Part shown: positions 4,859 to 59,088 of the stretch, piece by piece
Layout of the letters: every line of letters starts with the position of its first letter
Position numbering within the stretch: the first letter of the stretch is position 1
Source of the DNA: Bacillaceae bacterium IKA-2
GTDB lineage: Bacteria; Bacillota; Bacilli; Bacillales; Anaerobacillaceae
Assembly: GCA_031761875.1 (NCBI GenBank)
Contig: CP134492.1
Span: forward strand, 186,001 to 250,000
Direction of reading: 5' to 3'
DNA length: 64,000 nt
Program-made: the position numbers and the translations under genes
The notes under the pieces: generated by a model
The model's input: only the letters and a program-made list of their open reading frames with translations
The model's database searches: none
Told to the model about the DNA's origin: nothing

Positions 4859-5096
4859 GAAAAGCACAAGCGCCTTGATAGATTCGAAAAATGTTGGAGA
4901 CTAACCATAAAGAGGCGCTTTTTACCTCTGCATGGTTAGTTGAAACATTCGAGAACCTAGGCGCTGCAGCTAGACATAGAAAAGCACAAGCGCCTTGGTA
5001 GGTTCGAAAAATGTTGGAGACTAACCATTAAGAGGCGCTTTTTGCCTCTGCATGGTTAGTTGAAACATTCGAGAACCTAGGCGCTGCAGCTAGACA
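4859..5096. repeat. Tandem pair of about 118-base hairpin repeats in the metG leader
   Basis: Two near-identical units (4859-4976 and 4979-5096, period 120) start gaaaagcacaagcgcc and end gctagaca. Each folds almost end to end on itself: AGCGCC with GGCGCT, ATGTT with AACAT, AACCAT with ATGGTT, and an inner AGAGGC/CCTCT stem. They lie between the T-box terminator and metG, so they are part of the metG mRNA leader. Other copies are at 20452, 50380 and elsewhere in this window. Confidence 0.85.
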
Positions 5097-5098
5097 AA

Positions 5099-5385
5099 AA
5101 GCCCCCGCCCTATAGAGGGACGAGAGCTAATATTCTCACGTGTTACCACCCAATTCCCCTTGCTTCTCACGAGTCAAGGCTCAGTAAGTTACGCTTTTGT
5201 AACTTTACCTGACTAACGCTCAGGCCACGTCACCCTCTCATCACACAGTAACTTAAAGGTGATTCCTCCGAGACCATTTTCAAAAGTTCAGCCTATACCA
5301 GTTTTCAGCTCCCCTGGTTCTCTGCTTTATGAACACTCATAAATAGGTATTCCTTTTTACTTATCTCTTCAATGGAAAAATATAC
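5099..5385 (-). promoter_or_regulatory. T-box riboswitch leader of metG, AUG specifier
   Basis: On the minus strand the T-box core GGGTGGTAACACG (about 5140-5153) precedes a GC-rich terminator hairpin with T-run (5099-5130). Upstream is a long structured stem I region including an AGAGAACCAGGG block. The candidate specifier triplet is AUG at 5277-5275, in the context AAA-AUG-GUCUCGGAG. The serS leader in this window has the parallel context GAA-UCC-GUCCCAGAG, which supports both readings. Methionine specificity is inferred from this triplet and the gene downstream. The 5' boundary is approximate. Confidence 0.8.
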
Positions 5386-20451: not shown

Positions 20452-20570
20452 GAAAAGCGCAAGCGCCTTGGTAGGTTCGAAAAATGTTGGAGACTAACCA
20501 TAAAGAGGCGTTTTTTTGCCTCTGCATGGTTAGTTGAAACATTCGAGAACCTAGGCGCTAGAGCTAGACA
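20452..20570. repeat. Copy of the 119-base hairpin repeat
   Basis: Starts gaaaagcgcaagcgcc and ends gctagaca; nearly identical to the tandem pair at 4859-5096. It sits between ebfC and recR, ending about 15 bases from the recR ribosome site, so it is transcribed within the dnaX-recR operon. Confidence 0.85.
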
Positions 20571-43723: not shown

Positions 43724-44998
43724 CTATTTAATAATGGATAATCCACCCATATAAGGTTTTAATACACTTGGAACAGCAACACTACCATCTTCCTGTTGAT
43801 AATTCTCTAAAATAGCGGCAACAGTTCTTCCAATTGCTAGTCCTGAACCATTTAGTGTATGAACAAATTCTGTTTTACCCTTTACTTCTCTTCTAAATCG
43901 AATATTGGCGCGTCTAGCTTGGAAAGCTTCAAAGTTACTACAAGAAGATATCTCTCGAAAAGTATCAGCGCTTGGAATCCAGACTTCAATATCGTATTTT
44001 TTGGCTGCAGTGAAACCTAAATCACCTGTGCACATACTCATAACTCGGTATGGGAGCTCAAGGAGCTGTAAAACTTTTTCGGCATGCCCTGTTAGAAGTT
44101 CTAATTGCTGATAAGATTCCTCTGGCTTTACAAATCTAACCAATTCTACTTTATTAAACTGATGCTGTCTAATTAGCCCTCTTGTATCTCTTCCAGCTGA
44201 ACCTGCCTCAGAACGAAAACAAGCACTATACGCTGTGTACGAAATTGGCAGCTGATCCCCTTCGATTATTTCATCGCGGTGCATATTTGTTACAGGAACC
44301 TCTGCTGTTGGTATTAAAAAATAGTCTTCTTCTCTTATTTTAAAAGCATCTTCTTCAAACTTGGGAAGTTGTCCTGTTCCGATCATGCTAGTACGATTAA
44401 CAAGATATGGTGGTAGTACTTCTTCATAGCCATGTTCATCTTGATGAAGATCCATCATAAAATTAATCAAGGCTCGTTCTAGACGGGCTCCTTTTCCTTT
44501 ATAGAATACAAATCGGCTTCCCGTAACCTTTGCTGCTCTTTCAAAATCACACATATTTAAATTCGTTGCAATATCCCAATGTGGCTTTGCTTCATATTTA
44601 AAATCAGGAACTTCGCCCCATGTACGAATCTCTACATTATTATCTTCTGTTAAACCAACTGGAACACTTTCATGAGGTATGTTAGGAATTGTTAATAAAA
44701 TTTCTTCTAACTGCCCCTCTACTTCACGAAGTTGTTCATCTGAATGCTTAATTTTATCTGATACTTCTTTCATCTCTTTAATTAACTGATCAGCATCTTG
44801 TTTTTCTCGTTTTAATTTTGCCACTTCTTGAGAAACTAAATTACGACGACTTTTTAATTGTTCTCCATCACCAATAAGCTCTCTTCGTTTTTGATCAAGC
44901 TTACCAAAACGGTCTAAATCAACAAGTTTTTCACCGCGATTTTCAAGCTTAGCTTTCACTTCATCAAAATTTGCTCGTAACAATTTAACATCTAACAT
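43724..44998 (-). CDS. serS: Seryl-tRNA synthetase
   Basis: Class II synthetase of 424 residues. The N-terminal long antiparallel coiled coil (about 27-100) binds the tRNA-Ser long arm. Motif 2 ([20 protein letters not shown], about 258-277) and motif 3 ([17 protein letters not shown], about 380-396) are intact. GGGAGG precedes the ATG. Expression is controlled by the T-box upstream. Confidence 0.97.
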
Positions 44999-45037: not shown

Positions 45038-45487
45038 AACTCTCGTCCCAAATAAAAGGGACGAGAGTTAACCCGCGTTGCCACCCTAATAGTACCGAAA
45101 AGCGTAAGGCGCCCGCCTATTGGCAATAACCACTGGAAGACCGACAAGAAGCGGACTGTTCTTTGACCGCAATTGTCGGTCTGAAGTGGTCGAGCCGATG
45201 GCGCCTGAAGCTAGACATACCGAAAAGCGTAACGCTTTTTGTGATACCTCTTAGCATCTATCTAACGGTAGATGAACCGGAATTACTTAGTTGAAGCTTA
45301 GGTATGTCTAAGAAAGTAATTGATCTGTATGATGGTCTATTTTCCATCATCATCTTTAATCAGTAATTTTCTTTACAATGCCTGCTTGCTTCGTTCTGTA
45401 ATCTACTCTGGGACGGATTCACAAAACACTATTATCGATTTGCACCAACCATCGACTCTCTAGTAATAGTGACAAATGCTACTATTC
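45038..45487 (-). promoter_or_regulatory. T-box riboswitch leader of serS, UCC specifier, carrying an insertion
   Basis: The T-box core TAGGGTGGCAACGCGGGT is at about 45070-45087, followed on the minus strand by a terminator (ACTCTCGTCCC with GGGACGAGAGT and T-run). The specifier is UCC at 45417-45415 in GAA-UCC-GUCCCAGAG, a serine codon. The leader is about 125 bases longer than normal because a repeat element lies between the antiterminator part and the stem III hairpin (AAAAGCG/CGCTTTT at 45223-45239). Confidence 0.88.
45093..45232. repeat. Hairpin repeat inserted in the serS T-box, flanked by a 15-base direct repeat
   Basis: The element runs from gaaaagcgtaaggcgcc to ggcgcctgaagctagaca and resembles the copy at 50501. 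taccgaaaagcgtaa is present at both edges (45093-45107 and 45218-45232), 125 bases apart. This may be a target duplication, or the hairpin's own sequence may have served as a homologous entry site. Confidence 0.75.
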
Positions 45488-45522
45488 CCCTTCACTGTAT
45501 TTAAGCTTATTTTTCCCAAAGC

Positions 45523-48665: not shown

Positions 48666-48668
48666 ATC

Positions 48669-48783
48669 AAAAGCGCAAGTGCCTTTGTCACCAAGAGCAA
48701 TCACTAGAAGGTCGGCAAGAAGAAGTAACTCAGGACAGTAGCCTCTCTTAAGTGATCGAACAAGTAGGTGCTGAAGCTAGACA
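48669..48783. repeat. Diverged copy of the hairpin repeat after guaB
   Basis: Starts aaaagcgcaagtgcc and ends ggtgctgaagctagaca with a long internal inverted repeat. The middle differs from other copies. It abuts the terminator. Confidence 0.65.
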
Positions 48784-50379: not shown

Positions 50380-50680
50380 GAAAAGCGAAAGCGCCTTGAT
50401 AGCTTCGAAAAATGTTGGAGACTTGACATAAAGAGGCGCTTTTTGCCTCTGCATGCTTAAGTTGAAACATTCGAGGAGCTAGGCGCTGAAGCTAGACATA
50501 GAAAAGCGAAAGGCACCTGCCAACTGGAAGGCCTGTACGTAGCGGTCGGCTCTTAGACCGCAAGTGCAGGACTGAAGTGTTCGAGCCGATGGTGCCTGTA
50601 GCTAGACACAGAAAAGCTTCAGCGCCTTGATAGCTGCGAGTATGTTGGAGACTTGACATAAAGAGGCGCTTTGAACCGCA
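50380..50680. repeat. Three hairpin repeats in a row upstream of guaB
   Basis: Unit 1 (50380-50498) matches the 4859 type; unit 2 (50501-50608) is the ggcacctgcc type seen in serS; unit 3 (50611 to about 50680) is a truncated first-type copy. Each starts gaaaagc and the first two end gctagaca. They fill most of the 491-base yaaC-guaB gap; the rest holds no gene. Confidence 0.8.
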
Positions 50681-59003: not shown

Positions 59004-59088
59004 GAAAAGCGCAAGGCGCCTGCTCCTGCGGTTACTCGTCGCAAAACCTGCTAAGTAGTAACGCAAAGATGTGTCTTGGAGCTAGACA
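59004..59088. repeat. Hairpin repeat, short subfamily, between yaaA and recF
   Basis: Starts gaaaagcgcaaggcgcctg and ends ggagctagaca; nearly the same core as the copy at 7914. Confidence 0.75.

Follow-up and report, generated by a model that had tools for sequence, protein, structure and literature searches.

T-box leaders (RF00230) are recognised by a specifier codon that matches the downstream synthetase, a UGGN-type bulge and a terminator. In current nomenclature the variable hairpin 5' of the antiterminator is Stem III, a part of the discriminator that is flanked by 5'-RRRxG and AA-3', and 'curious insertions', whose structure and function are described as unknown, are said to occur in every domain of the leader (PMC7583486, accessible parts). 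The serS leader of Bacillaceae bacterium IKA-2, which we studied within a window of 64,000 nt (contig CP134492.1, positions 186,001 to 250,000), has the core of a transcriptional serS T-box and scores above the RF00230 cut-off. It differs from that family by two inserts, one of 84 nt in the Stem II loop and one of 125 nt in the Stem III loop, and by a change of the first A of the AA beside Stem III. The 'curious insertions', as far as the accessible text of PMC7583486 presents them, are likewise found in Stem II and Stem III; the serS inserts, in contrast, have a readable origin, as dispersed repeats with duplicated flanks.

These two repeats, here called A (in Stem III) and B (in Stem II), resemble bacterial MITEs, e.g. 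bcr1 of Bacillus cereus, in being non-coding, dispersed and hairpin-forming, and repeat B shares with them inverted ends and a direct repeat (PMC10969869, PMC2267715 and PMC3733652, each in its accessible parts). However, the very ends of repeat A are unpaired, its units stand head to tail and a parent insertion sequence was not found; the comparison with bcr1 is one of architecture, not of sequence. REP elements, as treated in the available part of PMC3733652, are similarly palindromic, non-coding and present in high copy number, and RAYT genes occur in the genome studied here, but REPs measure 20-40 bp and bear a GTAG or CGTC tag, whereas the repeat A unit is about 120 nt and lies away from the RAYT genes. 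The accessible part of a 2024 review on MITEs mentions T-box-like motifs in the BOX elements of pneumococcus, and a 2008 survey of stem-loop families, also available in part, includes families of Bacillus halodurans and B. anthracis. Neither an account of mobile repeats within a T-box nor a name for repeat A came up in the literature searched, though an earlier description of this repeat is possible.

We interpret the locus as a serS T-box of the ordinary, transcription-terminating kind into which two small non-coding repeats were inserted independently, B at the apical loop of Stem II and A at that of Stem III, and which still switches (probability roughly 0.72). The leader contains both inserts, accompanied by duplications of 4 nt (B) and 15 nt (A), where relatives have empty sites, and it keeps specifier, bulge and terminator. 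From the protein sequence and the UCC specifier we take the regulated gene to be serS, encoding SerRS; by tblastn its relatives, 80 loci of named bacteria (e.g. Priestia, Bacillus, Planococcus, Listeria and Brevibacillus), show 71-80% identity. The specifier matches this synthetase, a UGGC bulge is present and a terminator follows. RF00230 is the only Rfam family that reaches its gathering threshold (93) at the leader, and its alignment has 146 positions inserted just 5' of the T-box motif. The terminator stem pairs perfectly over its 12 bp, with an A in place of the G of a G-U pair of the congeners. The 97.3-bit match, the UCC and UGGC motifs and the 12-bp terminator bear out the statement of an earlier, sequence-only reading that T-box, terminator and UCC specifier are kept.

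Table 1. Features of the serS leader and related elements, in window coordinates
Feature	Position	Strand	Basis
serS, seryl-tRNA synthetase, 424 aa, regulated gene	43724..44998	-	ORF
T-box leader RF00230, 451 nt	45054..45504	-	cmscan 97.3 bits, cut-off 93
Specifier codon UCC (Ser)	45415..45417	-	sequence; GTGAATCC aligned across six congeners
Intrinsic terminator, 12-bp stem, arms 45058-45069 and 45038-45049	45038..45069	-	sequence
AGGGUGG, start of antiterminator, followed by remainder of T-box motif	45081..45087	-	sequence, cmscan
UAUU joining Stem III and T-box motif	45088..45091	-	80/80 other leaders have AA in first two places
Repeat A, 121-nt hairpin unit GAAAAGCG...GCTAGACA	45097..45217	+	covariance model 136.1 bits; covariation
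Direct repeat copy 1, TACCGAAAAGCGTAA; on minus strand the second copy of Stem III 3' strand	45093..45107	.	
Direct repeat copy 2, TACCGAAAAGCGTAA; on minus strand Stem III loop and first copy of 3' strand	45218..45232	.	
Stem III 5' strand, GUAUC ACA AAAAGCG; AAGAG (RRRxG) purine motif at 45248-45252 just before	45233..45247	-	congener alignment and published motif
Repeat B, 84-nt inverted-repeat element, apical loop of Stem II	45300..45383	-	empty in 6/6 congeners
GCTT, left copy of 4-nt target duplication of repeat B (minus strand AAGC)	45296..45299	.	sequence
GCTT, right copy of 4-nt target duplication of repeat B	45384..45387	.	sequence
Second T-box	5113..5381	-	78.8 bits, below cut-off
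Other repeat A family matches	50380-50498, 50501-50608, 48668-48783, 20452-20570, 59004-59088	+	covariance model

The serS gene was located in the genome studied and in all six congeners (one genome per species), and the leader query matches all seven. Its T-box match extends over 451 nt here and over 230-244 nt in each of the congeners. Between CCGTTA and the T-box motif the linker spans 175 nt, as opposed to 41, 43, 50, 40, 40 and 49 nt in the six congeners. Subtracting the insert of 125 nt leaves 50 nt, compared with 40-50 nt in 6/6 congeners. Similarly, the Stem II region measures 146 nt against 61-65 nt in five congeners, and the sixth reads 81 nt with the script anchored on an earlier GTGAATC. 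Among 79 leaders (75 from other named genera and four from congeners) the linker is 31-66 nt with a median of 37, the value of 66 being a spurious coding match; they come from 87 sequences, four of which were without the T-box motif (three by orientation, covered by the reading of the congeners) and four more without CCGTTA. All six congener leaders thus lack repeat A, as the comparison with close relatives proposed earlier had anticipated, and also repeat B; a long leader common to all relatives, which had been named as the outcome that would speak against an insertion, is not what they have. No repeat A or B was found within other T-boxes among the loci compared, i.e. 44 of 100 congener T-box matches (30 returned loci and 14 picked mainly for length or weak score), 16 in the same genome and 80 serS loci of other genera.

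Hairpins of the AAAGCC..GGCUUU type, which resemble the native Stem III (AAAAAGCCGGAACGGCTTTTT, AAAGCCGAACGGCTTT), occur in the two congeners whose linkers are longest, and the leader of Bacillus testis has an element-free Stem III of the form AAAAGCG-loop-CGCTTTT. Such hairpins make a native Stem III with GAAAAGCG plausible; an AAAAGCG-type palindrome at the serS Stem III is absent from all six congeners, and the ancestral site is one that we infer. Without repeat A, Stem III would read AAGAG-GUAUC ACA AAAAGCG UUA CGCUUUU C GGUAC-UA, and its counterpart in the congeners is legible as AAGAG-stem-AA. Repeat A with the 15-nt duplication is accordingly read from the alignment as entering the loop or the 3' strand of Stem III, inside the discriminator. 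The earlier reading was right about an insert of about 125 bases, but had placed it in a linker between antiterminator and Stem III; under the current nomenclature it lies within Stem III itself, a hairpin of the discriminator. What holds is its description of a dispersed hairpin repeat between 15-base direct repeats: the two copies of TACCGAAAAGCGTAA are identical at 15/15 positions and 125 nt apart, and further copies of the hairpin occur in the same genome.

The last 11 of the 15 bases of copy 1 are the conserved left end of repeat A, so this direct repeat is no plain target-site duplication. As the 15 nt comprise the loop and nearly the whole 3' strand of Stem III, that strand is now present twice. 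Closure on the first copy, which leaves repeat A outside, has a predicted energy of -64.8 kcal/mol, closure on the second copy, with repeat A in the loop, -63.0 kcal/mol, and a hybrid closure -60.5 kcal/mol, the unconstrained minimum being -65.1. In these folds Stem III can close either before repeat A or around it, and the first two energies are too near to choose between them. Of the motifs that flank Stem III, AAGAG is present and the AA on the other side has become UA (first A to U), while AA is kept in 80/80 other leaders (those with both motifs among 86 given). The palindrome AAAAGCG-N1-6-CGCTTTT, of the GAAAAGCG type, occurs at only two places in the genome, one of them the serS leader, and was rejected as a common target of repeat A. 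With a folding energy of -58.6 kcal/mol, the copy at serS falls among the values of the 43 further units compared (-31 to -66), and hence there is no sign of special selection.

Repeat B is a second, unrelated insert, overlooked by the sequence-only reading, whose single insert corresponds to repeat A. On the plus strand it starts with AGGTATG and ends with ATGCCT, giving the inverted ends AGGCAT/ATACCT. There are 10 further matches in the genome, mostly partial (11 with itself), and one weak match in a congener. Being short, non-coding, bounded by inverted ends and present in several copies, repeat B has the appearance of a MITE (an insertion sequence with an internal deletion), with the GCTT duplication read at serS only. 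In the predicted local fold the base pairs of Stem II are kept and repeat B lengthens its tip. Elsewhere, at about 0.815 Mb of G000:C1, a repeat B fragment stops about 8 nt short of the start of a different T-box match, a weak one (57.7 bits).

When aligned, 23 copies of repeat A define a hairpin of 28 pairs, in which 96.7% of cells are paired. Its covariation score is 0.181, compared with 0.097 for shuffled alignments (0/500) and at most 0.051 for slid ones; seven pairs are changed on both sides, moderately above the 4.8 of shuffles (15/500), and 15 further pair types are not above shuffles (15.8). At the termini AGC/GCT and AGGCGCC/GGCGCCT pair and the outermost 4 and 5 bases are unpaired. 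The covariance model built on these copies, the serS copy (E 6e-36) being itself one of the 23, gives at least 77 matches in the genome studied and at least 10 to 131 in the congeners, with 150 candidates scored per genome out of 856 in our own; searching the family in place of the genus yielded the same seven genomes. The leader used as a query finds 42 matches in its own genome: itself, 36 copies of repeat A and five of repeat B. Across the order, presumably Bacillales in the usual sense to judge from the serS relatives, 166 of 299 genomes and 66 of 113 genera have at least one match, these counts being lower bounds from 12 candidates scored per genome. Phage and plasmid records gave no match at E 1e-5, in a set that possibly leaves out records near this genome. 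The window holds eight matches of the family by the covariance model, all on the plus strand.

Two head-to-tail units of the repeat A family (4859-4976 and 4979-5096 of the window) come immediately after the terminator U-tract of another T-box, the one at 5113-5381. At about 2.834 Mb of G000:C1 another T-box terminator, whose downstream gene we take from its first residues to be ileS, is followed by two very short forms of 20 and 33 nt that consist of little beyond the two ends; ATAC stands in the host flank and again between these forms. At 3145913-3145930 of G000:C1 a left end is a perfect palindrome, GAAAAGCGCTTGCGCTTTTC, and the right end of a unit lies just past it on the other strand. 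Genome G266 has repeat-A-like units just before and after the 16S rRNA in four sampled rRNA operons, as well as right after the 23S in the three operons with a complete 23S.

Repetition of the flank together with the left end is a habit of the repeat A family, of which the serS duplication is one case. The sequence of right end, 1-5 nt and new left end occurs at 53 junctions in the genome, and the reversed-pattern control gave 0. Of 49 distinct junctions read in fetched stretches, 45 have an upstream left end, 36 of them with host DNA to the left and nine inside arrays; the count retains some upstream left ends at odd distances (e.g. 22, 45, 90 and 146 nt). At the host-flanked junctions, spacer and host flank are the same in 14/36 cases (mean of shuffles 7.6, P 0.0007), and in 23/36 the left ends match at all four variable bases (mean of shuffles 8.7, 0/3000). 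Inside arrays the figures are 4/9 for the spacer (shuffled 2.7, P 0.23) and 7/9 for the left end (4.1). Seven spacers of at least 3 nt lie beside host DNA, and five of them equal the host flank (TACC at serS, ATTA, ATC, AAC and ATAC), while TTA and AAT differ. The earlier interpretation of the direct repeat as a signature of insertion is thereby partly supported, since flank and left end are repeated more often than in shuffles, but a later tandem duplication could also produce the pattern.

In this genome repeat A is also oriented with replication. GC skew was computed from fetched stretches, a few short ones of which are near zero or opposite in sign. It has negative values as far as 0.25 Mb and positive ones between 0.34 and about 1.9 Mb, is close to zero at 2.47 Mb and turns negative again by 2.70 Mb; the replication limits of 0.29 and 2.69 Mb were placed at these sign changes after the pattern had been seen. 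With them, 50/53 junctions agree with the direction of replication, as do 31 of the 33 model matches listed (of 77) and 50/54 matches after merging of neighbours. Among 25 flanks scored by open frames, 15 were leading with the expected orientation, three leading with the opposite one and seven on the lagging strand, and all seven of the latter adjoin copies in replication orientation. We rejected the idea that the bias is a by-product of gene direction on account of these 7/7 lagging-frame copies, a small number. Of 14 matches in three genomes that belong to a single genus of another family, 13 fit the strand rule, whereas in a fourth genome, also of another family, 17/17 run against it, all in sampled stretches of rRNA operons; the stretches from other families were partly chosen at known repeat matches. 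A replication-strand bias has reportedly been found for IS608 and is said to be expected from transposition of single-stranded DNA. An orientation bias of the kind associated with IS200/IS605 elements is thus present in repeat A of this genome, at 50 of 53 junctions. Most likely, repeat A moves via single-stranded DNA at the replication fork, which we infer from the replication orientation of the copies and from the unit being one long hairpin.

How the long leader arose can be explained in other ways. That it is simply the normal Stem II and Stem III of the lineage, with no insert at all, is scarcely credible: both stems are known to vary in length (accessible parts of PMC7583486), but both extra segments belong to dispersed genomic repeats with duplicated flanks, all six congeners are short, and the empty sites refute this explanation. 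More serious, though still improbable in our view, is an origin without transposition, in which a local template switch or a transposase-free tandem duplication made use of the 11 nt that the native Stem III shares with the left end of the repeat. It would account for the frequent head-to-tail neighbours (53 junctions, none in the reversed pattern) and for the agreement of left-end variants between neighbouring copies, seen in 26/40 cases across several genomes (15.3 expected within genomes) and in the 23/36 host-flanked junctions (8.7 expected). Among 97 distinct units, however, only 40 have a second left end within 8 nt and 57 have none, so most needed no such event, and the share varies by genome (15/31 here, 18/32 in G003 and 1/25 in G001). 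If repeat A does transpose, its mobiliser could be a RAYT (REP-associated tyrosine transposase) of the HUH/Y1 type, an assignment that we regard as doubtful. The genome has seven Y1 matches, six of them to the RAYT model NF047646, and 3/3 proteins tested match this model (E 5e-18 to 4e-26; one above cut-off); three RAYT-like genes (open frames of 201, 285 and 300 aa) are clustered in about 5 kb at 503-508 kb of G000:C1. The strand bias would suit such an enzyme, and over 299 genomes RAYT and repeat co-occur (both in 119, repeat only in 47, RAYT only in 68, neither in 65; Fisher P 3e-4, uncorrected for descent). On the other hand, none of the seven Y1 loci has an end of repeat A inside its 1.5-kb flanks, and 10/37 genomes with at least 12 matches have no RAYT match. 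With a unit of 121 nt and no end within 1.5 kb of the seven Y1 genes, repeat A does not correspond to the REP pattern of a 20-40 bp palindrome often placed beside a RAYT.

A further question is whether the leader still works, and here we consider that it is most likely a working, perhaps weakened, riboswitch. Retained function is likely because the specifier, the bulge and the terminator core are kept. It is less probable, though a real minority possibility, that the insertions broke or are breaking the riboswitch, so that serS would show constitutive readthrough or termination and the intact core would be a recent inheritance. Some features would suit a broken switch: the UA in place of the AA beside Stem III that 80/80 other leaders have, the two partners that repeat A offers to Stem III, one of which separates it from the antiterminator, and the fact that three of eight own-lineage changes fall in Stem II strands. 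These eight are substitutions at columns invariant in the others; the congeners have 1, 1, 4, 4, 8 and 5, so the count is high in the range, not unique, and there is no clear acceleration. Against a broken switch stand the perfect 12-bp terminator and the unchanged specifier, bulge and RRRxG motif. Moreover, the serS copy is at best 83-84% identical to other copies of its genome over at least 110 nt, and 88% to the congener copies listed; its insertion is thus probably not very recent, yet the core has been kept. Two predictions help little in this matter. Pairing of the antiterminator is near zero alike in four versions of this leader (with and without A and B) and in the six congeners and is therefore uninformative. 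In the fold of the full leader 0.70 of the pairing of repeat A is internal and 0.84 of that of repeat B, while leader stretches of the same length give 0.34-0.82; the value for repeat A is within this range, so the measure does not demonstrate an isolated fold.

The preferred interpretation, two insertions into a T-box that still switches, implies the following course of events. The native Stem III of the lineage would have happened to contain GAAAAGCGTAA, i.e. the bases of the left end of repeat A, and the element would have entered at this match. The duplication would have copied the 3' strand, leaving Stem III able to close either before the hairpin formed by the repeat or around it. Repeats A and B would fold largely on themselves, and the leader would still switch on uncharged tRNA-Ser, perhaps less well. 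Overall, the double insertion into the T-box is real and well supported, and retained function is probable, as judged from the conserved sequence. Although this is speculation and unlikely to be right in full, repeat A might be an unnamed, replication-strand-biased hairpin element, mobilised as single-stranded DNA and dispersed over much of its order, that tends to enter sites resembling its own left end and duplicates the flank together with that end. It would then have mistaken the serS Stem III for such a site and made the T-box bistable, and mobile repeats might be a general source of T-box insertions. If this were true, the two alternative closures of Stem III could tune the response of the T-box.

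For two T-box insertions in this single leader an origin from mobile repeats can be traced; each occupies an apical loop whose stem is retained. This suggests a rule, testable over many T-boxes, by which parasitic hairpins are tolerated in the outer loops of Stems II and III and not in the core. The serS leader therefore might serve as a natural construct for studies of large structured inserts, with and without them. The mode of movement of repeat A, an element present in 166 of 299 sampled genomes of its order and, in one genome, at the flanks of 16S rRNA in the four operons sampled, constitutes a testable question of its own.
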